A DNA stretch of 22,649 nt, taken from positions 1 to 22,649 of the IMG/VR virus record IMGVR_UViG_3300010403_000059; one strand, written 5' to 3'. Positions 2,767 to 14,162 of the stretch are shown piece after piece; the stretch's first letter is position 1; each line of letters opens with the position of its first letter. The stretch comes from a virus. The notes below the pieces were generated by a model that made no database searches, was not told where the DNA came from, and saw nothing but the letters and a program-made list of their open reading frames with translations. Both the position numbers and the translations under genes were made by a program.

Positions 2767-3387
2767 ATGCATTCGATCCTCGAGATCATCGACGAGTCGA
2801 CCGACAGCGCGGGGCCTGACCTGATCAGCCTCGACGATCTCAAGCTCGCGCTCGGCATCGAAGGCGCGACGGAAGATGCCGCGCTACAGGCGGCAATCAC
2901 GATGCAGTCACGGCTGATTGCAGAGTATTGCAACCGCCGCTTAGGGCTGGCCGAGGTATTGGAGACATTCACCGTCGATCGCAACGAGTACATGCTCGAG
3001 CGGCAGGCACTGACGCTGTCGCTCTATCCGGTGGTCGAGATCATCGAGGTCTCGACCGCAGGCGCCACCGCGGCCGACGTTGACTTTGATCCGGCCAGCG
3101 GACGGCTGTGGATCGACGGCTGCTGGGCCGAGACAGTCGTCGCCGTTCTCTACCAGGGCGGCTACGACCTGCCGGAAGAAGCGCCCGCGCGGCTGCAGCA
3201 GGCGGTCATCCAGGCGGTGAACGAGAACCGCACATCCGGCACGCGCGATCCTACGATCCGCGAAGTGCAGCACGGCGACACCCGCGTTGCCTATTTCACG
3301 CCATCGCTGTCGACCGCGTCATCGGGGTATCTCTCGGCGATCGTGGTTGATCTCATCAAGCCGTATCGCCGTTTGCACGTTGCCTAG
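2767..3387 (+). CDS. Head-tail connector protein, HK97 gp6-like
   Basis: The ATG directly follows the previous TAA. The 206-residue protein has the pattern of the phage gp6-like connector family. It begins with an N-terminal helical segment (ISLDDLKLALGI...EDAALQAAITMQSRLIAEYCNR) and a beta region with L-x-L-x-x-Y-P-V-V-E-I. This is followed by VLYQGGYDLPEEAPARLQQAVIQAV and a C-terminal helix ending near a conserved L.PYRR. In family members this protein forms a ring under the portal and joins the head to the tail. The length is on the long side of the family, as in many proteobacterial phages. Its position just after the fibre genes and before neck genes fits. This is one of the safest functional calls in the window. 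Confidence 0.88.
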   Translation: MHSILEIIDESTDSAGPDLISLDDLKLALGIEGATEDAALQAAITMQSRLIAEYCNRRLGLAEVLETFTVDRNEYMLERQALTLSLYPVVEIIEVSTAGATAADVDFDPASGRLWIDGCWAETVVAVLYQGGYDLPEEAPARLQQAVIQAVNENRTSGTRDPTIREVQHGDTRVAYFTPSLSTASSGYLSAIVVDLIKPYRRLHVA

Positions 3388-3399
3388 GGAGGCCTCGCC

Positions 3400-3641
3400 A
3401 TGTCACTCGGTGGAATCCTGTTAGGTATTATCAATGTGGCAATCGTCGTTGCCATCCTCTTGCTGGTGGGCGCAATCATCCTTTGGTTCTGTTCGTGGAT
3501 GGGTATCGCGGTGCCGGCAACGTGCAGAAGGGTTATATCGCGGTGGTGGCGCTGATCGCGCTTTACCTCATCGTCGCGCTGCTGCTGGGCATACCGTCGA
3601 TCCGCATCATCGGTGGCATGCCGGGAATGCTGCTGGCATGA
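3400..3641 (+). pseudogene. Small two-helix membrane protein, split by an apparent -1 frameshift
   Basis: ATG at 3400 has a strong ribosome binding site (GGGAGG, 3387-3392). The initial frame gives a 51-residue peptide stopping at 3553-3555. It carries one clear membrane helix (residues 5-30) and then turns Arg-rich. From about 3516 the frame one base back encodes NVQKGYIAVVALIALYLIV, a second strong membrane helix, and ends at TGA 3639-3641, which overlaps the next ATG as ATGA. Adding one base in GTG-CCG-GC-AAC would join the halves as VPANVQKGY. I infer one ancestral protein of about 80 residues with two membrane helices. Either a one-base loss or sequencing error broke it, or a -1 ribosomal shift joins it. 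There is no canonical slippery heptamer; a weak G_GGT tetramer lies at 3501-3504. Function unknown. Confidence 0.6.
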
Positions 3642-4276
3642 GCGCATTCTGGCCGGTCCCGCGCGAGTGGGAAGGCGAGACCGCCTTCATCGTCGGCGGT
3701 GGGCCGTCGGTGCTCGAGGTCGACCTCGAGGCCCTGCGCGGCCGGCGCGTCATCGTCATCAACTCTAGCGTCTACGCCGCGCCATGGGCCGACATCCTCT
3801 ATTTCGGCGACTGGCGCTGGTGGAACGAACCGGAGAACCGGGCGGCGGTCGCGAGCTTCCGAGGCCGCGTCGTCACCACCTCGCGCATGGTGTCGGAAGC
3901 CAAGAATGTGCTGGTCTGCCGCAAGACCAATCCGCCGGGGCTCGCGCGCGAGCGCGATAGCCTGATGCAGAAGTGGACCTCGCTCACGGCCGCAACCAAT
4001 CTGGCGGCGCATCTCATCGGGCCTGATGGCACCATCGTCTGGCTCGGCATCGACGGCAAGGCCGCGGCAGACGGCCGGACCTGGCACCACAAGCCGCATC
4101 GCTGGGCGCCGAAGAAGGAACGCTACGATCGCCACCGCGCCGATCTCGCCACCATGGTCGAGCCGCTGCGGACCATGGGCATCACGTTATGGAACGCCAG
4201 CCCCGGCAGCGCCTATGCCGATCTGTGGCCGGTCATCGATCTGCAGGACGTATTGAGGGAGCGGCGTGCGGCATAA
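3638..4276 (+). CDS. DUF115/MptE-like Rossmann-fold protein, possible glycan-modifying enzyme
   Basis: ATG at 3638 overlaps the upstream TGA (ATGA), suggesting coupled translation; no separate ribosome binding site is seen. A longer in-frame ORF from 3434 runs through the membrane protein in the wrong frame and is rejected. The 212-residue protein begins WPVPREWEGETAFIVGGGPSV (TAFIVGGGPSV at 15-25). This glycine-rich N-terminal loop is typical of the DUF115/MAF/MptE-like and sialyltransferase-like Rossmann proteins. It continues with VIVINSSVYAAPWADILYFGDW (39-59), where these families have a conserved N and D near the substrate site. WLGIDGK and HHKPHRWAPKK follow. The partner genes are a glycosyltransferase and a methyltransferase, which supports a role in making or attaching a sugar. 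Substrate unknown; an inactive structural role cannot be excluded. Confidence 0.6.
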   Translation: MSAFWPVPREWEGETAFIVGGGPSVLEVDLEALRGRRVIVINSSVYAAPWADILYFGDWRWWNEPENRAAVASFRGRVVTTSRMVSEAKNVLVCRKTNPPGLARERDSLMQKWTSLTAATNLAAHLIGPDGTIVWLGIDGKAAADGRTWHHKPHRWAPKKERYDRHRADLATMVEPLRTMGITLWNASPGSAYADLWPVIDLQDVLRERRAA

Positions 4277-5159
4277 ACCCATCCTCGTTCGCGGGATGTG
4301 GGGAATGGGGGACTGCGTATACAGCCGGCCGTTCGTGCGTGCGGCGGCAAGGGACTACGAGCTTCACCTCGAGACGCCGTGGCCTGAGCTTTACGCCGAT
4401 CTCGATATCAAGTTTGTCTGCGGCAGTCGCAAGCTGCGCACGCAGCAAAAGAACATGGCGCGGCAACCGTCCGATCGGTGGGTGCGATCGGCGCCGATAC
4501 CGATGCGCGAGATCAAGGTCAGCTATGGCAGAGAATTGACGACTGCCTCGATCATCAATGCGCTCGAGCATAGATGGGCAAAGCTGAACGTCGGCTTTAA
4601 TCCGGCGCTGTTCGATCTGCCGGACTTAGGCGCATCGCCGGTCAACGCCGACCGCCCGATCGCGGTCATCCGGCCGGTGACGGTACGCACCGAATGGCGC
4701 AACGAGGCGCGCAACCCGCGGCCAGAATATGTCGCAGCGATCGCCGCCGAACTGATGGCAACCCATACCGTGGTCGCCGTCGCCGACCTCGCGCCGAACG
4801 AGGAATGGGTCATCGGCGAGCCGCCACCGGCGCACCGCTACTTTGTCCACGGCGAGCTCTCGGTGCGCGAGCTGCTCGCCCTGGTGCGCGACGCAGACAT
4901 CGTCATCGGCGGCGTCGGCTGGATCGTGCCGGCGGCGCTGGCGCTCAAAGTCAATGCCTTCGTCATCCTGGGCGGCCACGGCGGCCACAACGCACCCGAG
5001 AAGATCACCGACCCACGGCTCGATCTGAGCCGCATCGGATTTGCCAAACCGGAGAAGTTCTGCCGATGCACGAATATGCTGCACACCTGCGACAAGACGA
5101 TCGCGGACCCGCTCGGGCAGTTCTCCCGCTGGTGGGGCAGTTCTCGCGCCGCTGCCTGA
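4266..5159 (+). CDS. Glycosyltransferase family 9-like (heptosyltransferase-like) protein
   Basis: GTG at 4266 overlaps the previous gene by 11 bases. The 297-residue protein has an N-terminal MWGMGDCVYSRPFVRA (11-26), matching the start of GT9/heptosyltransferase-like proteins (glycine loop, then R-P-x-x-R). The C-terminal half has ADIVIGGVGWIVPAALALKV (210-229), the usual acceptor/donor-side motif where a D and a G-G-x-G precede a hydrophobic helix. A Cys cluster follows (C266, C268, C275 in FCRCTNMLHTCDK), which I recall from phage homologues. The fold is expected to be GT-B. GT9 enzymes transfer ADP-activated heptoses to LPS, but phage relatives have unknown donors and acceptors. It sits between a DUF115-like gene and a methyltransferase, so it may modify host surface glycan or virion proteins. 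Confidence 0.65.
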   Translation: MRHKPILVRGMWGMGDCVYSRPFVRAAARDYELHLETPWPELYADLDIKFVCGSRKLRTQQKNMARQPSDRWVRSAPIPMREIKVSYGRELTTASIINALEHRWAKLNVGFNPALFDLPDLGASPVNADRPIAVIRPVTVRTEWRNEARNPRPEYVAAIAAELMATHTVVAVADLAPNEEWVIGEPPPAHRYFVHGELSVRELLALVRDADIVIGGVGWIVPAALALKVNAFVILGGHGGHNAPEKITDPRLDLSRIGFAKPEKFCRCTNMLHTCDKTIADPLGQFSRWWGSSRAAA

Positions 5160-5770
5160 CCTGGTGGCTGCAGCACGGCATCGGCTACTACCCGGTCGAG
5201 GCCGGGCACGCACCTTACGATCAGGACTATTTCGACAGCTTCGATCGCAACGCCCAGACCGAGCTCGGCCGCGCCCTGATGCAGGCGCGATTCAACTTCG
5301 TCGAGCGGCATTATCGCGGGACGCTGATCGATGTCGGCATCGGCTCGGGTGCCTTTGTCGAACTGCGCAACCAGCGTGGGCGCTCGACCTACGGCTACGA
5401 TGTCAATCCGGCCGGTCTCGCCTGGCTCGAGCAACGCATGCTGCTGGTCGATCCGCATCTGGTCTCGTTCGATGCCGTGACCTTGTGGGACGTGCTCGAA
5501 CACATCCCCGATTTCCAGTCGCTGCTCGCCAATGTGCGCGAATGGGTCTTTCTCTCGCTGCCGATCTTCCGCGACGCCGAGCACGCGCTGAGATCGAAGC
5601 ATTTCAAGCCGGAGGAGCATTGCTGGTACTTCACCCGCAATGGGCTGGTGTTTGCAATGCAGACCTGCGGCTTTGCGCTGGTGTCGGAAAGCAACATCGA
5701 GACCGAACTCGGCCGCGAGGACATCGGGACGTTTGCCTTCCGAAGGGAAACCTCACCGTGTCCAGCCTGA
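5132..5770 (+). CDS. Class I SAM-dependent methyltransferase
   Basis: The domain is clear: motif I LIDVGIGSGAFVE (65-77), GYDVNP (88-93) with the acidic residue that binds SAM ribose, and LWDVLEHI (118-125). The C-terminal half continues with FLSLPIFRDAEH and EEHCWYFTRNGL, typical of small-molecule or sugar methyltransferases (Methyltransf_11/23-like). GTG at 5132 is chosen because it overlaps the previous gene by only 28 bases. ATG at 5066 is in frame and would add 22 residues but overlaps by 94. Neither has a convincing ribosome binding site, although GGAG at 5051-5054 lies 11 bases before 5066. It probably methylates the product of the neighbouring glycosyltransferase; that link is inference. 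A DNA methyltransferase is unlikely, as no (D/N/S)PP(Y/W/F) motif is seen. Confidence 0.75.
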   Translation: MGQFSRRCLTWWLQHGIGYYPVEAGHAPYDQDYFDSFDRNAQTELGRALMQARFNFVERHYRGTLIDVGIGSGAFVELRNQRGRSTYGYDVNPAGLAWLEQRMLLVDPHLVSFDAVTLWDVLEHIPDFQSLLANVREWVFLSLPIFRDAEHALRSKHFKPEEHCWYFTRNGLVFAMQTCGFALVSESNIETELGREDIGTFAFRRETSPCPA

Positions 5771-6720
5771 TCAACCGCATTCAACGCGCGATGCTCGGTA
5801 GCGCGGGCGCGGAGAAGGTGCGTGCTCTGCTGCATGAGCTTGCCATTCCGGCCGGCGGTTCAGGTGGCTCGATGCGTGAGGTTCGCCGCGGTTTCCTGCG
5901 GCCCATATCAGACGAGGCGATCTTGCGCGATGCACTCGCTGATCTCGGTCTTAGCGGCGGCGGCGGTGGTGGCACCCAATCGCTGTCGAGCATTCGGACT
6001 GCGATCCTGCATAATTGGAGCGGCAACGAGGCTGCGCTGCGTGATGGACTTGATGGCCTGATCGAGCCGGGAGATCTAGCGAGTGGCGGCGGCGCAAGCC
6101 CTGCATGGTTGGAAACATTCCGCACACCCAATGGTGATCTGCCGCGTGCAGGTTTTGCCCTCGTGGGCGGTGAGGTGAAATGCTGGGATGGTACTACAGA
6201 TGAGATTGGCATCGCCGACCTGATCACCAATGGCACCGCTGACGGCAGCGGTTTAATCGTTCTCGACAGTGCGTCTCATTTCATTTTGTCGGCGGCGTTC
6301 GTCGAGCAACTCAAATTCCCTGCTACTTATTTGATAGCGGGTAGTTATTCCGAGGGTACGATTCCTGTCCTCAATTTCTTTGAAGAGACGTTCCCGCCAT
6401 TGAAGTATGTCAGCATTTATCACAACTATGTTTCAATTACTTCCGATGATTTTGACACCGTTTATTTGGAGGCGTCCACGGGCGGTGCCCTTCAAGGAAG
6501 GACAGCCGCGACTGTCTCACTTACCAAGGTTGCTATTTCCCAGGATGGTGAAGCCACTGCTGTCTCAGGTCCAGGCAGCGTTGATTTTGCGGATAGTGAG
6601 ATAGCATCCGTTTTTCTCTATGGAAATGAAAACCAGGCCTACACCGGGCGCTGCACTGTTTTGTTTGTTTATGGCCAGCAAGCAGATGCTGATCTCATCA
6701 GCATGAGCACCCCGCCATGA
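5758..6720 (+). CDS. Unrecognised protein with lower-GC C-terminal half, possible fibre or adhesin
   Basis: GTG at 5758 overlaps the methyltransferase end by 13 bases and has a purine-rich leader (GAAGGGAAA). The in-frame ORF upstream of this start is Arg/Pro-rich shadow. The 320-residue protein begins with helical segments separated by Gly linkers (about 28-40, 65-72 and 103-108). Two of them look alike: RPISDEAILRDALADLGL and HNWSGNEAALRDGLDGL. The second part (about 120-320) is predicted mostly beta, with many aromatic and Thr/Ser/Asp residues, and has no known motif that I can name. From about 6230 the DNA is visibly richer in A and T than its neighbours, suggesting a separately acquired tip domain. 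Function unknown; a lectin-like jelly roll is one guess. Confidence 0.6.
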   Translation: MSSLINRIQRAMLGSAGAEKVRALLHELAIPAGGSGGSMREVRRGFLRPISDEAILRDALADLGLSGGGGGGTQSLSSIRTAILHNWSGNEAALRDGLDGLIEPGDLASGGGASPAWLETFRTPNGDLPRAGFALVGGEVKCWDGTTDEIGIADLITNGTADGSGLIVLDSASHFILSAAFVEQLKFPATYLIAGSYSEGTIPVLNFFEETFPPLKYVSIYHNYVSITSDDFDTVYLEASTGGALQGRTAATVSLTKVAISQDGEATAVSGPGSVDFADSEIASVFLYGNENQAYTGRCTVLFVYGQQADADLISMSTPP

Positions 6721-7073
6721 CCATCGACTATAGCGCGCTGCTCTACGACCCGGTCTATGCCGAGCTTGGTGTGCCGGCGACATTGTCCGTCGGAACGGCG
6801 GGCGAGGTTACAATCACCGTGATCGATGAAACCCGGCCGAAGTCCAACATCAATGGAACCATGGAGGTGCGCACAACCGGGCCAGGCGCCTTCGCCCGCA
6901 TCCCTGAACTCGCCGAGAAAGGGATTGTGCGCGACGATTATCAGGGGGCGTCGCTGACCTTCAATGGTCGCTCCTGGCTCGTGCGCTCGCATGAACTGCG
7001 CGGCAGTCCGAACGGCGAGGATGTCGGCGAGGTTCGCTTTCTGCTCAAGGCCATCGAGTCGAGCGATGGCTGA
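6717..7073 (+). CDS. Putative head-closure or head-tail joining protein (118 aa)
   Basis: ATG at 6717 overlaps the upstream TGA (ATGA). The small, largely beta protein starts TIDYSALLYDPVYAELGVPATLS. That form, an opening that fixes a phage coordinate gene to its target followed by a small beta barrel, is common in lambda gpFII-like and related head-tail joining proteins. It has no enzyme motif, no membrane helix and no Cys. In siphophage order the gene between connector and tail terminator is usually the head-closure protein, which is where this lies once the glycan cassette is ignored. The call rests on size, fold impression and gene order, not on a motif I can prove. Confidence 0.55.
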   Translation: MTIDYSALLYDPVYAELGVPATLSVGTAGEVTITVIDETRPKSNINGTMEVRTTGPGAFARIPELAEKGIVRDDYQGASLTFNGRSWLVRSHELRGSPNGEDVGEVRFLLKAIESSDG

Positions 7074-8692: not shown

Positions 8693-9243
8693 AATTTGAG
8701 GTCAAGACCGACCAATCGGTTTGGCAGCGAATGCTTGAGGAGAAGCGGCGAAAGGTTGCCACCGCAGCGGTTGCCGCCTTGCGCGAGACCGCTGCCAATG
8801 CCGTGCAGGAGGGACGCCAGAATATCGGGGAGGCCGGACCTGGGTTTACGCGGGCGAAGTGGCAAAGTGGATTGCAATACCGGACCATGGAGGCGACCGA
8901 AGGCGGGGAGCCGTCGCTGCAGGCCAAAGCCGTCGTCTTCCACACATATGGCATCGCAGGAGTGTTCGAGCGCGGTGCCACCATCTCGGGCAAGCCGATG
9001 CTGTGGATACCGACCAGGCATGGGGCGCCGACCGCCAGCCGCTCGGGCAAGAAACTCACCTCGGCCACGATCGGTGGCAAGCCGATGCTGTTCGATGCCG
9101 ACGACAGGGATCGCCAGCGCAAGCCGCTCTATATCGGCGTTCCATCGGTTACCATTCCGAAGAAATTCCGCATAGGCGAGATCGTTAAGGAACACGCGGC
9201 AAAATTCCGCGAGCTATTCAGCAAACATTTCAAGGACGCGTGA
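8689..9243 (+). CDS. DUF6441-like / HK97 gp10-like tail or neck protein
   Basis: ATG at 8689 overlaps the GT stop (ATGA). The 184-residue protein has a long N-terminal helix with many Ala, Arg and Glu (RMLEEKRRKVATAAVAALRETAANAVQEG). A motif FERGATISGKPMLWIPTRHGAP (99-120) follows, typical of DUF6441 and loosely of gp10-like phage proteins, then a basic end. Gene order (after chaperones, before tape measure) differs from HK97, where gp10 precedes the tube. DUF6441 members are tail components of unknown detail. The sequence gives no enzyme motif and no membrane helix. The family call comes from memory of the motif and needs a profile search to confirm. Confidence 0.6.
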   Translation: MKFEVKTDQSVWQRMLEEKRRKVATAAVAALRETAANAVQEGRQNIGEAGPGFTRAKWQSGLQYRTMEATEGGEPSLQAKAVVFHTYGIAGVFERGATISGKPMLWIPTRHGAPTASRSGKKLTSATIGGKPMLFDADDRDRQRKPLYIGVPSVTIPKKFRIGEIVKEHAAKFRELFSKHFKDA

Positions 9244-9249
9244 CACGCC

Positions 9250-11793
9250 ATGGTAGACAAAATCTCGATCGGAATTGGGCTTGAAGGCGGCGATGATGTC
9301 CGCAAGCAGCTCGAGGAGATTGTCGGCGGCGTCGACGGTCTCAAGAGCGCGGCAGAAGAACTGGGCCAAGTTGATGCGACGCTGGAGGTCAGGGCTGAAG
9401 GTGCCGACGAGGCTAAGACCGGCATCGACGGTGTCAAGGGTGCGGCAGAGGAACTGGGCCAGACCGAGGCAACGGTAGAAGTCAAGGTCGAGGGTGCCGA
9501 CGAGGCCAAGACCAAGATCGACGATCTCAAGGGTGAGGCGGAAGAGTTGGGCCAGATCGATGCAACGGTGAACGTCAGCGCCGAAGGCGCCGCCGAAGCG
9601 AAGGGCCTGCTCGATCCACTCTCCCAGTCGGCGACCGTCATCAGTGGGTCCATAGACGCGCTTGGTCTTGCCTTCAGCAGAATGGGCGCCCGAATGACAA
9701 GGTCGCTCGGGCCAATCGGTGTTTTTGCCCGAGCATTAGGTCCGGTCGGCATCGCGGTCGGTGTTCTGGCAGGAACGCTCATCAAGTTTGGAGATTCCTC
9801 TGCAGATGCACTCAACAAGCTCACTGTCGAATCGGCAAAGCTGGGTTTGACTGCACAGCAACTCGATACATTGCAGCAGGCTTTTGGCAGGCTCGGCGTA
9901 GCTCCAGATGCGCTTGCTAGCAGTCTGGAGAAGTTGAAGCCGCTGCTTGGCGGCGGTCTCATGCGGGTTGGCGATATTGTTCCTCCTAGTGTTTTCACGG
10001 GACTGCAGCAGTTCATCGCCCAGCTCCAGCGTATGCCAGATGGCATTGATCGCACTAAACTTGCGCTCGCAACTCTGGGAGACGCCCTCGGCGGTCAAGT
10101 GATCGCAGGATTGCAGACGGGTACTATTAGTGCGAAAAATTTTGCGGCGGCGCTTGGTAGCGTCACGCCGGCAACACAACAACAGATCGTTGAGGCGGCC
10201 AAGTATCAACAGACACTCAATGGTTTGAATGCGGCATGGACCGAACTCAAGAGAGTTATCACGCCGATCACAACGCCTATATTGGAGTTCCTGACGCGGG
10301 AACTGACGATTATAAGAGCAGAAGTCAGCAACCTTGTTGCTCAATGGAATGTGCTGGTTGCGGCTCTTAAACTGTTTGGCAGTCCGCTGGAAGGCCAGGC
10401 AGAAGCGGCGCAGAAGGTTCGCGCGGCATGGGAAGAATTGCAGAAGAATAATGAGCAGTTGCGGCAGACATATCAGCAGGTCGGGCAGACGGCGCAGCAA
10501 GCCGGACAGCAGGCGGGTCAGGCAGGACAGCAGGCGGGTCAGGGCGTTTTGGTCTGGAATGAAGCTCTCGGCAGAGCCGTATTGAGTACACAGCAAACCG
10601 GCCAGGCAGCGCAGCAAGCCGGACAGCAGGCGGCGTCGGGTTTCATGGTTTGGGATGAGAAACTCGGAGCGATAACGCAGCAGCAGGCGGCACTAGCGCA
10701 GTCATCAGCGCAAGCAGGAGCGGCATCGACGCAAGCAGCGCAGCAAGGTACATCGGGATGGCAAGGACTTATTTCCGCGATCCAGGGGGCGGGTACCGAG
10801 CTTGAGGGTTTTATAAACAAGATGCTCGGCATCGCCTGGGACGTTATTTCAAGCGCCGGCGTGGCGGCATGGAACGCACTCACCGGCGCGATCCAGGGCG
10901 CAATCAATAAGCTGCTGGAGTTCATAGGACTGAAGCCAAGCGGTGGCGCGGCGGCGCCGGCAGCGGCGGGCGCGGCGGCGCCGGCAGCGGCGGGCGGTGG
11001 ACAGTTTGCCAGCGGCGGTCTGCTCGGTGGTCGTGGCACTGGTACGTCAGACAGCAATCTCGCCTGGCTTTCGCGCGGCGAATACATCATGCCGGCGCGA
11101 GTGGTGGCGCAGCCAGGCGTCGCGTCGTTTCTCGAGGCGCTGCGGCGTGGCGGGGGAATTCCGGGCTTTGCCGATGGCGGCTTTATCCGCGGCGTAACAT
11201 TCAGCGGCGGTGGCGGCATGGCCGACAAGATAGCCGACTGGATTGGCAGCATTGCGGGAGCAAATAACGAAACGCGCAAGGCGCTGGAGCAAATAGCGCA
11301 AAGCGTTGTCGGTGTCGCCGACAGCCTTACCGATAAACTGTTCCCAGTTGTGTCCGCTATGACTGATGCATTGAATGCTTTGAACAGGGGAGGGGGCAAC
11401 GCCCGCGGTGGGCTGCTCGGTGGTCGTGGCACCGGCACATCGGATAGTAACCTGGCCTGGGTTTCGCGCGGCGAGCACATCATGCCGGCGCGGGCGGTGG
11501 CGCGACCGGGCGTCCTGGCTTTCCTCGAGATGTTGCGGATGTCCGGCGGCGATCTGCGGCGGGTGCTTGACGGCATGGGCCGCTTCGCGCTCGGCGGCCT
11601 GGTCCCGCGGGCAATCCCTGCATTCGCCACTGGCGGCCTGGCCGGCGGCATGAGCAATGTCACCATTCAGTTTCCCGGCCTGCCCGAGATTGGCGGCCTG
11701 CGCGCCTCGTCCGGCGCGGTCGATGAGTTGCGCAAGGCGGCGGCGCTGGCGCAGGTCCGCTCCGGTGGCCGCAAGCCCTCCCGGTATTCCTGA
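9250..11793 (+). CDS. Tail tape measure protein
   Basis: This is the longest gene (847 aa), lying after tube and chaperones, with the composition of a tape measure. Residues 28-120 are three 31-residue repeats; 120-190 hold a hydrophobic stretch (GPIGVFARALGPVGIAVGVLAGTLI). A helical domain follows, then a long Gln/Ala/Gly coiled region (about 390-510) with AQQAGQQAGQ repeats and a twice-used V-W-x-E-x-L-G motif. The C-terminal third has Ala/Pro linkers and two copies of LLGGRGTGTSDSNLAW.SRGE..MPAR, a motif known from tape measure C-termini. At roughly 1.5 angstrom per residue the tail would be about 125 nm long, but only if all residues act as ruler. The start is ATG at 9250 with a weak ribosome binding site. 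The call is confident. Confidence 0.85.
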   Translation: MVDKISIGIGLEGGDDVRKQLEEIVGGVDGLKSAAEELGQVDATLEVRAEGADEAKTGIDGVKGAAEELGQTEATVEVKVEGADEAKTKIDDLKGEAEELGQIDATVNVSAEGAAEAKGLLDPLSQSATVISGSIDALGLAFSRMGARMTRSLGPIGVFARALGPVGIAVGVLAGTLIKFGDSSADALNKLTVESAKLGLTAQQLDTLQQAFGRLGVAPDALASSLEKLKPLLGGGLMRVGDIVPPSVFTGLQQFIAQLQRMPDGIDRTKLALATLGDALGGQVIAGLQTGTISAKNFAAALGSVTPATQQQIVEAAKYQQTLNGLNAAWTELKRVITPITTPILEFLTRELTIIRAEVSNLVAQWNVLVAALKLFGSPLEGQAEAAQKVRAAWEELQKNNEQLRQTYQQVGQTAQQAGQQAGQAGQQAGQGVLVWNEALGRAVLSTQQTGQAAQQAGQQAASGFMVWDEKLGAITQQQAALAQSSAQAGAASTQAAQQGTSGWQGLISAIQGAGTELEGFINKMLGIAWDVISSAGVAAWNALTGAIQGAINKLLEFIGLKPSGGAAAPAAAGAAAPAAAGGGQFASGGLLGGRGTGTSDSNLAWLSRGEYIMPARVVAQPGVASFLEALRRGGGIPGFADGGFIRGVTFSGGGGMADKIADWIGSIAGANNETRKALEQIAQSVVGVADSLTDKLFPVVSAMTDALNALNRGGGNARGGLLGGRGTGTSDSNLAWVSRGEHIMPARAVARPGVLAFLEMLRMSGGDLRRVLDGMGRFALGGLVPRAIPAFATGGLAGGMSNVTIQFPGLPEIGGLRASSGAVDELRKAAALAQVRSGGRKPSRYS
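9331..9609 (+). repeat. Three 31-residue tandem repeats in tape measure N-terminus
   Basis: Residues 28-58, 59-89 and 90-120 of the tape measure share the pattern (V/I)D(G/D)(L/V)K..AEELGQ.(D/E)AT(V/L).V..EGA.EAK. The period is 93 bases and the copies are in frame. The first two copies are closest. Each unit looks like a helix followed by a strand. Confidence 0.75.
11011..11547 (+). repeat. Duplicated RGTGTSDS segment in tape measure C-terminus
   Basis: Two copies of about 48 residues lie at 11011-11154 and 11404-11547, 393 bases apart. They share GGLLGGRGTGTSDSNLAW, SRGE(Y/H)IMPAR and PGV(A/L).FLE.L. Small differences between copies indicate an old duplication under protein-level constraint. 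A shorter 24-base GC-rich duplication (10945-10992) encodes an Ala/Pro/Gly linker just upstream. Confidence 0.75.
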
Positions 11794-12170
11794 TGCCGGC
11801 CTATACCCTGCTCGCGATCGACAGCATCGACTTCTCGCAGTACGCCGTGCGCGGCATCACCATGACGCTGGACCCGATCGACCAGGCCAAGAACGTGGCG
11901 CGCGATTGCCGCGGCGATCTGGCCGATATTTCGGTCGCGCAGTTCCGGCAGTACAAAGTTTCGATTACCTGCACCGACCACGAGGCGCCGGCACTCGCCG
12001 GCGTTTGGCCGGGCCAGGACATCACCATCACCTGTATCCCCGGCCTCGGCGGCGGCGATCCCGACGACGTGCTGACCATCCTGGCCAAGGTCACAAGCTG
12101 GAACACTTCGCGCGACGAATGGGCGGCCGAGGTGGCGTGGCAGCTCGAGGCCGAGCAACGGACACCCTGA
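11793..12170 (+). CDS. Small tail protein downstream of tape measure (125 aa)
   Basis: ATG at 11793 shares one base with the tape measure stop (TGATG), so translation is probably coupled. The protein is mostly beta, with PAYTLLAIDSIDFSQYAVRGITMTLDP at the start, a QYKVSITCTD strand and a C-terminal W-x-x-E-V-A-W-Q-L strand. It has three Cys and no membrane segment. Position suggests a distal tail or adaptor protein. No family can be named from sequence alone. It is a real gene by tight packing, codon pattern and absence of a better frame. Confidence 0.6.
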   Translation: MPAYTLLAIDSIDFSQYAVRGITMTLDPIDQAKNVARDCRGDLADISVAQFRQYKVSITCTDHEAPALAGVWPGQDITITCIPGLGGGDPDDVLTILAKVTSWNTSRDEWAAEVAWQLEAEQRTP

Positions 12171-12173
12171 TCG

Positions 12174-14162
12174 ATGCCTGCCGGCCTTCCCTATTTCGCC
12201 TGGATCGACGCCAGCGAGACGACGTTCGGTCCTGAACACATGCGCTGGGATGAGGCGGTATTCGAGTTCATCCTGTCGCAGCAAGAGGGCGACCCGGCGA
12301 GCCTGACCGCCAAAGTCCGGCGGCCGGTTAACGAGGCTGGCAGCGTGATCGGGCTGCTCGGTCCCGGCCGCAAGATATGGTGCTGGTTTGCCTTTGACTG
12401 CGGGCCGGCGCTGGTCAAGTTCCGCGGCCGCCTCGTCGGCATTCCGACCAGCATCTTCGAGGAGCTGGTGACGCTGGAGTTCGTGGCGCGGCCGTTCGAT
12501 GTCGTCGCGCAGAAGGAGGCCCTGGCGGAAACGCTGCGCGTGCTGCCGTTCTATGATCCGGTGGTGCTCGACAAGGAGCGACGCAAAGACCCTGATGTTG
12601 TGCTCGAGGGCTATACCGCCATCTGGCACTACGATCGCGAGACGCACATTCTGACTATCTCCGACGAGATCACCGGCGAGGACGGCCTGGTCGAGTTCGA
12701 CGGTGCGAGCGAAACCGGCAAGGTACTCTATGACGGGCTGGGCCTGACGTTAACCAGCGGGCCGCTGTCCCGTGTCGATGTCAGTGCCGAGTTTACCTGG
12801 ACGCAGCAGGCCGTCGGCACTGTCGACCTGACCCGATACATCATCGACATCGCGCGACCGATCACGGACGGCCAGGCCGGCTCGATTGCGTCATACACCT
12901 TGACGGCAGACAGTTGGCCGAAGCCCAAAACCGGGATCGGTGATGGCTGGGAAGTCGCGGAGTCAAGATGCTACGAGAACTATGATCTGACGCTGCGGCA
13001 ATGGACGAGCAGCACAACTGTCCTTGTTGAGACGGGAGATGGCCAAACCATCAACGGAAGTCGGACCCATTCGCGCAGCACGTTTGCAATTCCACCAGGG
13101 AGTATGACGGTTGGATTTGATATCCAAAGTACATGGAGTGTCTCATATAACGATGACGGTGATGCCACGGGATACAGCAGCAACTATTCGTCGACTGCTT
13201 CGGTCTTGCCGTTGCATCACATCACGCCGACACTGGTGGCAGGCTACAAAGCCGAACGGCAATGCACCGAGCTGGTGTCGTTCTCGTTGATTGCCGATGT
13301 CCAGCCGATCCTGACCGATCCCGAAGACGGCGAGGCCATGCGGATCGATGACATCCGCTCGGTCAATCTCAGCGATCCCGAAGAGGGGGTGCCCATCGGC
13401 GATCCGCGGCGACGATCCTACATCGCCACCGAGCGCGGCAACCGAAGCCTCGAGCACCTCATCGCGCTCGCGCGGGCGCACCTGATGAAACGCGCGCGGG
13501 TGGTCGAGATCGCGTTCGCGCCCAAGCTCGCGCGCATGCCCGAGATCACGCTGCGGAAAAATGTATCCCTGATTGAGCCGCGGGTCGGCGAGGCGGTGGG
13601 CAAAATCATCGGTTATTCGATCGCGCTCGACGGCTCGGATGGCCGGGTCAAATGCGAGGTTCGGATCGGCTGCACCATCGGCTATGGCGGCTCGCAGGTT
13701 GCGTTCGCAGGGACGCCGACCTATTGCAGCATCGATTATGTCGGTGCCGATTATCAGCAGTTCAACGATCGCGTGGTGCTGTTCGATGAAGGCGATACCT
13801 CGGTCGGTTATCAGCCGCCACAGGCGGCGCCGAACGATGACGGCATCGACTTCCTGTCGGCTCTCAGCGCGGAAGATGTGATCGACATCCCACTCACCGT
13901 CGAGAACCCGCCGCGGGATCAGCAGACCTACATCCTGCAGGCGACCATGGGTCATACCTTGCCGAGAACGCCGGCTGCGGACGACGCGGAGTTGCAGAAA
14001 TATTACGAGACGACATCCGAGCTTGCCGGCGCGGCATTGAGGCAAGTCGAAACCAAACTGATCTTCAAACTCAAGAGCATGACCAGGGAATTTTCCAGCG
14101 ACTACGAACTGCAGGTCACCGATTTAAAAATACCGACCGGCTATGATCTGGAGGCGGCATAA
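12174..14162 (+). CDS. Large tail-tip / baseplate hub candidate (662 aa)
   Basis: ATG at 12174 lies three bases after the previous stop. The 662-residue protein starts with LPYFAWIDASETTFGPEHMRWDEAVFEFILSQQEGD, followed by a K-V-R-R-P region and GRLVGIPTSIFEELVTLEFVARP. That form matches the N-terminus of tail-tip hub proteins (related in role to lambda gpL/gpJ or Mu gp44-like hubs): a beta barrel followed by rotated domains. The middle (about 270-350) is rich in Ser, Thr and Tyr and may be a surface insertion. The C-terminal part (about 400-662) returns to well-ordered sequence with YYETTSELAGAALRQVETKLIFKLKSM. Its role is probably structural at the tail tip, in contact with the receptor-binding genes that follow. 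Family assignment is by position and general pattern. Confidence 0.55.
   Translation: MPAGLPYFAWIDASETTFGPEHMRWDEAVFEFILSQQEGDPASLTAKVRRPVNEAGSVIGLLGPGRKIWCWFAFDCGPALVKFRGRLVGIPTSIFEELVTLEFVARPFDVVAQKEALAETLRVLPFYDPVVLDKERRKDPDVVLEGYTAIWHYDRETHILTISDEITGEDGLVEFDGASETGKVLYDGLGLTLTSGPLSRVDVSAEFTWTQQAVGTVDLTRYIIDIARPITDGQAGSIASYTLTADSWPKPKTGIGDGWEVAESRCYENYDLTLRQWTSSTTVLVETGDGQTINGSRTHSRSTFAIPPGSMTVGFDIQSTWSVSYNDDGDATGYSSNYSSTASVLPLHHITPTLVAGYKAERQCTELVSFSLIADVQPILTDPEDGEAMRIDDIRSVNLSDPEEGVPIGDPRRRSYIATERGNRSLEHLIALARAHLMKRARVVEIAFAPKLARMPEITLRKNVSLIEPRVGEAVGKIIGYSIALDGSDGRVKCEVRIGCTIGYGGSQVAFAGTPTYCSIDYVGADYQQFNDRVVLFDEGDTSVGYQPPQAAPNDDGIDFLSALSAEDVIDIPLTVENPPRDQQTYILQATMGHTLPRTPAADDAELQKYYETTSELAGAALRQVETKLIFKLKSMTREFSSDYELQVTDLKIPTGYDLEAA

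Follow-up and report, generated by a model that had tools for sequence, protein, structure and literature searches.

Positions 3638 to 5770 of a 22.6-kb viral fragment from IMG/VR (22,649 nucleotides; analysed as a whole and termed the window) raise the question of what a cassette of putative glycan-modifying enzymes does when it is encoded together with head and neck proteins, and on which molecule it acts. The window contains fibre/collagen genes, a connector gene, the cassette, a head-closure gene, tail genes (tail terminator, tail tube and tape measure) and an endolysin-like gene. The left flank of the cassette is a head-tail connector/adaptor gene (2767..3387, plus strand, as are all genes below; Phage_connect_1, 4.6e-6; phrog_442, head-tail adaptor, 1e-23). 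It is followed by a gene for a small two-TM protein (3400..3641), which has an apparent frameshift in the window and is an intact ORF in relatives, such as that at locus L023. The stop of this gene overlaps the ATG start of the DUF115/MptE-like gene (3638..4276) in the sequence ATGA. The 3' end of the DUF115-like gene overlaps the GTG start of the GT9-fold glycosyltransferase gene (4266..5159) by 11 nt. The start of the class I SAM methyltransferase gene (5066..5770) is placed at the ATG at 5066 rather than at ~5156, since the relatives are consistently ~230 aa long, and with this revised start the gene overlaps the glycosyltransferase gene by 94 nt. The end of the methyltransferase gene overlaps an accessory gene that starts with GTG at 5758, and this gene in turn overlaps the ATG of the head-closure (Hc1) gene (6717..7073), the right flank of the insertion, which is assigned from conserved order and weak matches (Phage_attach, 0.013; phrog_82, 0.046). 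Thus, apart from the methyltransferase start, the three overlapping ORFs are present where the preliminary description placed them, between the connector and the neck genes.

When the DUF115-like protein is used as a query, 80 viral loci are obtained, 64 of which hold both flanks. Synteny was counted by homology, because shadow ORFs confuse an ORF-based reading. The DUF115 gene is located between the connector and head-closure genes in 64/64 contigs with both flanks, and the dN/dS values between relatives (~0.06-0.28) indicate purifying selection on the three cassette genes. These results indicate that the ORFs are not chance ORFs. The earlier proposal of a three-gene glycan-modification cassette in the head-tail operon is supported. 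When the tail-tube protein, a query blind to the cassette, is used instead, 48 loci with both flanks are obtained; the cassette is present in 33 and absent from 15 of them. In most of the cassette-less loci the connector gene directly adjoins the head-closure gene (-7 to 134 bp), and in three a gap of 252-933 bp separates them. This result indicates that the cassette is a discrete insertion in a slot between these two genes. The pattern of presence and absence is partly clade structure, the cassette-less loci being all among the more distant members. The slot is also the site of large collagen fibre genes, which replace or follow the cassette at three loci (L023, 6205-8153; L024; L038), the fibre of L023 having an apparent chaperone-like domain at its end as read by eye. 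HNH-type endonuclease genes, likewise read by eye, are located inside or after the cassette at L076, L077 and L011.

The composition of the cassette varies in a characteristic manner. The same glycosyltransferase (type 1) and a Methyltransf_23-type methyltransferase are encoded as in the window in 52/64 contigs, whereas a divergent glycosyltransferase (type 2, ~30% identity) is encoded in 11/64, together with a Methyltransf_24-type protein in the loci read. In the remaining contig (1/64) the DUF115 gene is followed by a fibre gene. The exchange of the glycosyltransferase and methyltransferase as a pair suggests that both act on the same product. Both methyltransferase types (24, then 23) occur in tandem after the glycosyltransferase gene at L144, L146 and L192.

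The family assignments made from the sequence alone (DUF115/MptE-like, GT9-like and methyltransferase) prove right at the level of fold. In the profile search that had been proposed, the methyltransferase is the only one of the three proteins of the window with a significant Pfam match. The methyltransferase matches Methyltransf_23 (3.9e-15; 56.4 bits against a cut-off of 27) and phrog_6564 (1.6e-61), and D89, G91, G93 and G95 of its DxGxGxG motif are invariant in the alignment. Variants of this protein belong to sugar/small-molecule families, and one at another locus is of the TylF type (macrocin O-methyltransferase, 4.5e-19), which points to a sugar as the methyl acceptor. For the glycosyltransferase, nothing significant is found in Pfam, Glyco_transf_9 included; one relative reaches 0.069. 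It is therefore filed as GT9-like only. Its match to phrog_6804, a family of function unknown, is strong (1.7e-99), and its AlphaFold model (pLDDT 91) has a GT-B/GT9 fold, with Foldseek matches to TibC, WaaF, WaaC and 3tov (E from 2.5e-8 to ~1e-5). TibC (2.5e-8) and WaaF (2.6e-8) are the best PDB matches with practically equal E-values; the top ranks are mostly TibC (TM 0.57-0.66, as compared with 0.58 for WaaF and 0.52-0.55 for WaaC). G13, G15 and D16 of the N-terminal GxGD motif are invariant in 37 sequences, and D16 is the candidate catalytic Asp.

The C-terminal motif CxCx4HxC is found in 172/173 relatives of the glycosyltransferase and is absent from two divergent members. It was the prior sight of this invariant motif that prompted the comparison with TibC, an autotransporter protein O-heptosyltransferase (BAHT) in which four cysteines close to the C-terminus form an iron site (Cys339/342/358/370; PMC4358343). 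The two enzymes share the GT9 fold, TibC being the top structural match, and both have a C-terminal metal-type cluster. They differ in that the identity is 14-18%, the partner protein is different, and the phage enzyme has CxCx4HxC instead of the four-cysteine iron finger with TibC spacing. Thus, the modelled glycosyltransferase resembles GT9/TibC enzymes at the fold level, a likeness that does not establish a TibC-type activity.

The DUF115-like protein, a putative glycosyltransferase with the motifs GGGPS, LGxDG and HH-x3-H, has no Pfam match itself; 5/35 aligned relatives match PF01973 (MptE-like/DUF115; best 1.5e-7). This Pfam family is common to the Maf flagellin glycosyltransferases. The likeness to Maf/GT42 sialyltransferases consists of this family and of the label 'alpha-2,3-sialyltransferase' carried by phrog_4603, which the protein matches at 3.4e-22; there is no direct sequence or PDB match. 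The model of the protein (pLDDT 89) resembles viral MptE-like/DUF115 folds (TM 0.63-0.66) and has no significant structural match in the PDB, the best being human ST6GALNAC2 (not GT42; E 0.011, TM 0.38). The PHROG label is taken as a lead only, because viral MptE-like folds are matched instead of any PDB sialyltransferase at a significant level. A PDB sequence search with the glycosyltransferase and DUF115 profiles likewise returns nothing significant.

The trio is not confined to the lineage of the window. When loci are collected with the glycosyltransferase as the only query, the order DUF115-glycosyltransferase-methyltransferase is found in 53/57 loci with flanks. Most of these loci are within the interval from portal to tail terminator but at differing points, either MCP-adaptor or Hc1-gp10 (30 between head closure and gp10), the lineage of the window instead using the connector-Hc1 point. 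Other sites are capsid/adaptor, capsid/tape measure, beside lysis genes and lysis/terminase. The ordered trio is complete in enterobacterial-type prophages, in Pseudomonas phage PAJU2 and in Klebsiella jumbo phage Eowyn, where it stands apart from recognised structural genes. The glycosyltransferase profile is rare in a Pseudomonadota sample (2/398 genomes), and two prophages there carry the trio. All hosts named among the relatives are Gram-negative (soil bacteria, Pseudomonas and enteric bacteria). The DUF115 gene also occurs in Bradyrhizobium and Mesorhizobium prophages. It is present in 9/297 sampled genomes of the Bradyrhizobium family, and in nine loci from eight of these genomes it is located among head-neck genes (9/9; capsid, adaptor phrog_442/40, head closure phrog_25), in most cases with changing GT9-like, methyltransferase (Methyltransf_11, _24, TylF) and hexapeptide-transferase genes. 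The Mesorhizobium prophage locus L091 contains an open frame of 961 aa in which DUF115, glycosyltransferase, weak GT2 and methyltransferase domains are fused. In the Bradyrhizobium locus L090, the ninth, the DUF115 gene follows the capsid gene and is accompanied by a GT-D fold transferase; downstream of the capsid gene, the region 9114-13097 encodes a second DUF115-like protein, a fusion of GT-D and methyltransferase domains and one more putative transferase.

The preliminary description could not tie this combination to anything known, but the same ordered trio is present in the isolated phages PAJU2 and Eowyn, although functionally undescribed; no description of the trio or its function was found in the open-licence literature. 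In PAJU2, the three homologous families overlap in the same order between the head-closure and gp10-like/tail-terminator genes. In D3 all three genes are present, but the first is displaced to a site before the adaptor gene. In these Detrevirus phages the genes are labelled 'alpha-2,3-sialyltransferase', 'hypothetical' and 'methyltransferase', with no function described, and the identity to the window is 47% for the glycosyltransferase, 40-41% for the methyltransferase and only ~21% for the DUF115-like protein. In the Caulobacter/Brevundimonas jumbo phages (Dolichocephalovirinae) a DUF115-like protein (31-35%) is encoded adjacent to tail genes, with GT9 and methyltransferase genes also nearby in CcrColossus; however, the genes are not contiguous in the trio order and are beside tail fibre and lysis genes. 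At the level of description, mycobacteriophages resemble the present case in that a phage-encoded glycosyltransferase is thought to act on virion proteins. According to two papers (PMC12619734, PMC13313380), which cite Freeman et al. 2023, the C-termini of their capsid and tail-tube proteins carry the virion glycans; in some actinophages a methyltransferase accompanies the glycosyltransferase.

A Ser/Thr-rich capsid or tail-tube C-terminus of the mycobacteriophage type was not seen in the cassette phages, in which part of the capsids is readable. The collagen-like fibre, which the preliminary description favoured as a substrate, is rejected as a general one, since repeats without the cassette and the cassette without repeats are both common: collagen repeats are present in 9/13 cassette-less relatives, and none is found around the genes in Bradyrhizobium-family prophages (7/9 loci), Mesorhizobium, D3, PAJU2, Psp6 and Eowyn. 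The window encodes at 5-1153, upstream of the connector gene, a fibre with a (GPS)n collagen-like segment and a glycine-rich domain; this is an odd site for a tail fibre gene, and the product could be a head fibre.

These results fit a soluble glycan-decoration module. We consider it an even chance that the cassette acts in the cytoplasm, where a virion protein would be glycosylated and the sugar methylated. Synthesis of the three proteins would accompany that of the head and neck proteins. The virion protein would receive a sugar from the GT9-fold enzyme, and a second sugar would be added or transferred by the DUF115-like protein; the methyltransferase would O-methylate the sugar, so that virions would carry a variable methylated glycan. 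A virion protein is the predicted target because of the position of the genes across independent lineages and because the relative TibC acts on protein. This reading is supported by the slot (64/64), the order (53/57), the paired exchange of glycosyltransferase and methyltransferase, the fusion at L091, the TibC fold, the position of the nine Bradyrhizobium-family DUF115 loci among head-neck genes and the precedent of virion glycans in mycobacteriophages. In addition, none of the three proteins has a clear transmembrane segment (mean hydropathy at most 1.94). Counted against it are the negative substrate search, the E-value of WaaF close to that of TibC, the spacing of the metal motif and the two members without it, the lysis/terminase-linked and Eowyn copies, and a DUF115-like protein with no significant PDB match.

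The main rival is a late change of the host surface, in which a methylated sugar would be placed on LPS core during its synthesis, or on a different surface glycan, and the progeny would be spared re-adsorption to debris or spent cells. WaaF, the match at 2.6e-8, is a cytoplasmic LPS heptosyltransferase, the named hosts are all Gram-negative, and the copies that adjoin lysis genes fit a surface change as well. However, Gtr cassettes, unlike the trio, include a membrane/flippase-type partner, and the position of the trio tracks head-neck genes in most independent lineages; a surface role is considered rather unlikely. Less probable still is a passenger cargo with no bearing on virions, which would act on some small metabolite or on a defence molecule. 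The slot is permissive, in that it also accepts HNH-like endonuclease and fibre genes, and cassette-less relatives exist, but the order of the trio is kept in distant phages at differing sites, most of them among head-neck genes. Modification of phage DNA just before packaging, by glycosylation or methylation of bases, is very improbable, although a few loci are beside terminase genes and there is precedent for DNA hypermodification by viral glycosyltransferases (cited in PMC12619734). The glycosyltransferase fold is GT9, the methyltransferase variants are of sugar/small-molecule families, and an unsystematic look at the main loci revealed no base-hydroxylating or thymidylate-synthase-like partner; thyX is located ~2 kb from the genes in BUCT-ZZ01 only.

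If virions are indeed decorated by the trio, a glycan coat specified by phage genes is present in phages that infect Pseudomonas, enteric bacteria and soil rhizobia, with possible effects on antibody recognition, stability, adsorption or counter-defence. Three phage protein families whose current labels are 'unknown' or derive from remote similarity would then also gain a function. It is tentatively proposed, at somewhat less than even probability, that the trio represents an undescribed and widespread system in phages of Gram-negative bacteria, in which the DUF115-like core stays nearly constant while glycosyltransferase/methyltransferase pairs are exchanged, so that a variable methylated virion glycan would result, much as bacteria vary the glycans of flagellin or LPS.

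The accessory protein encoded next to the trio (5758..6720) has no Pfam or PHROG match and occurs in few relatives only (L007 and L011). Its N-terminus is kept and its C-terminus is variable, and it is possibly a modular binding protein.
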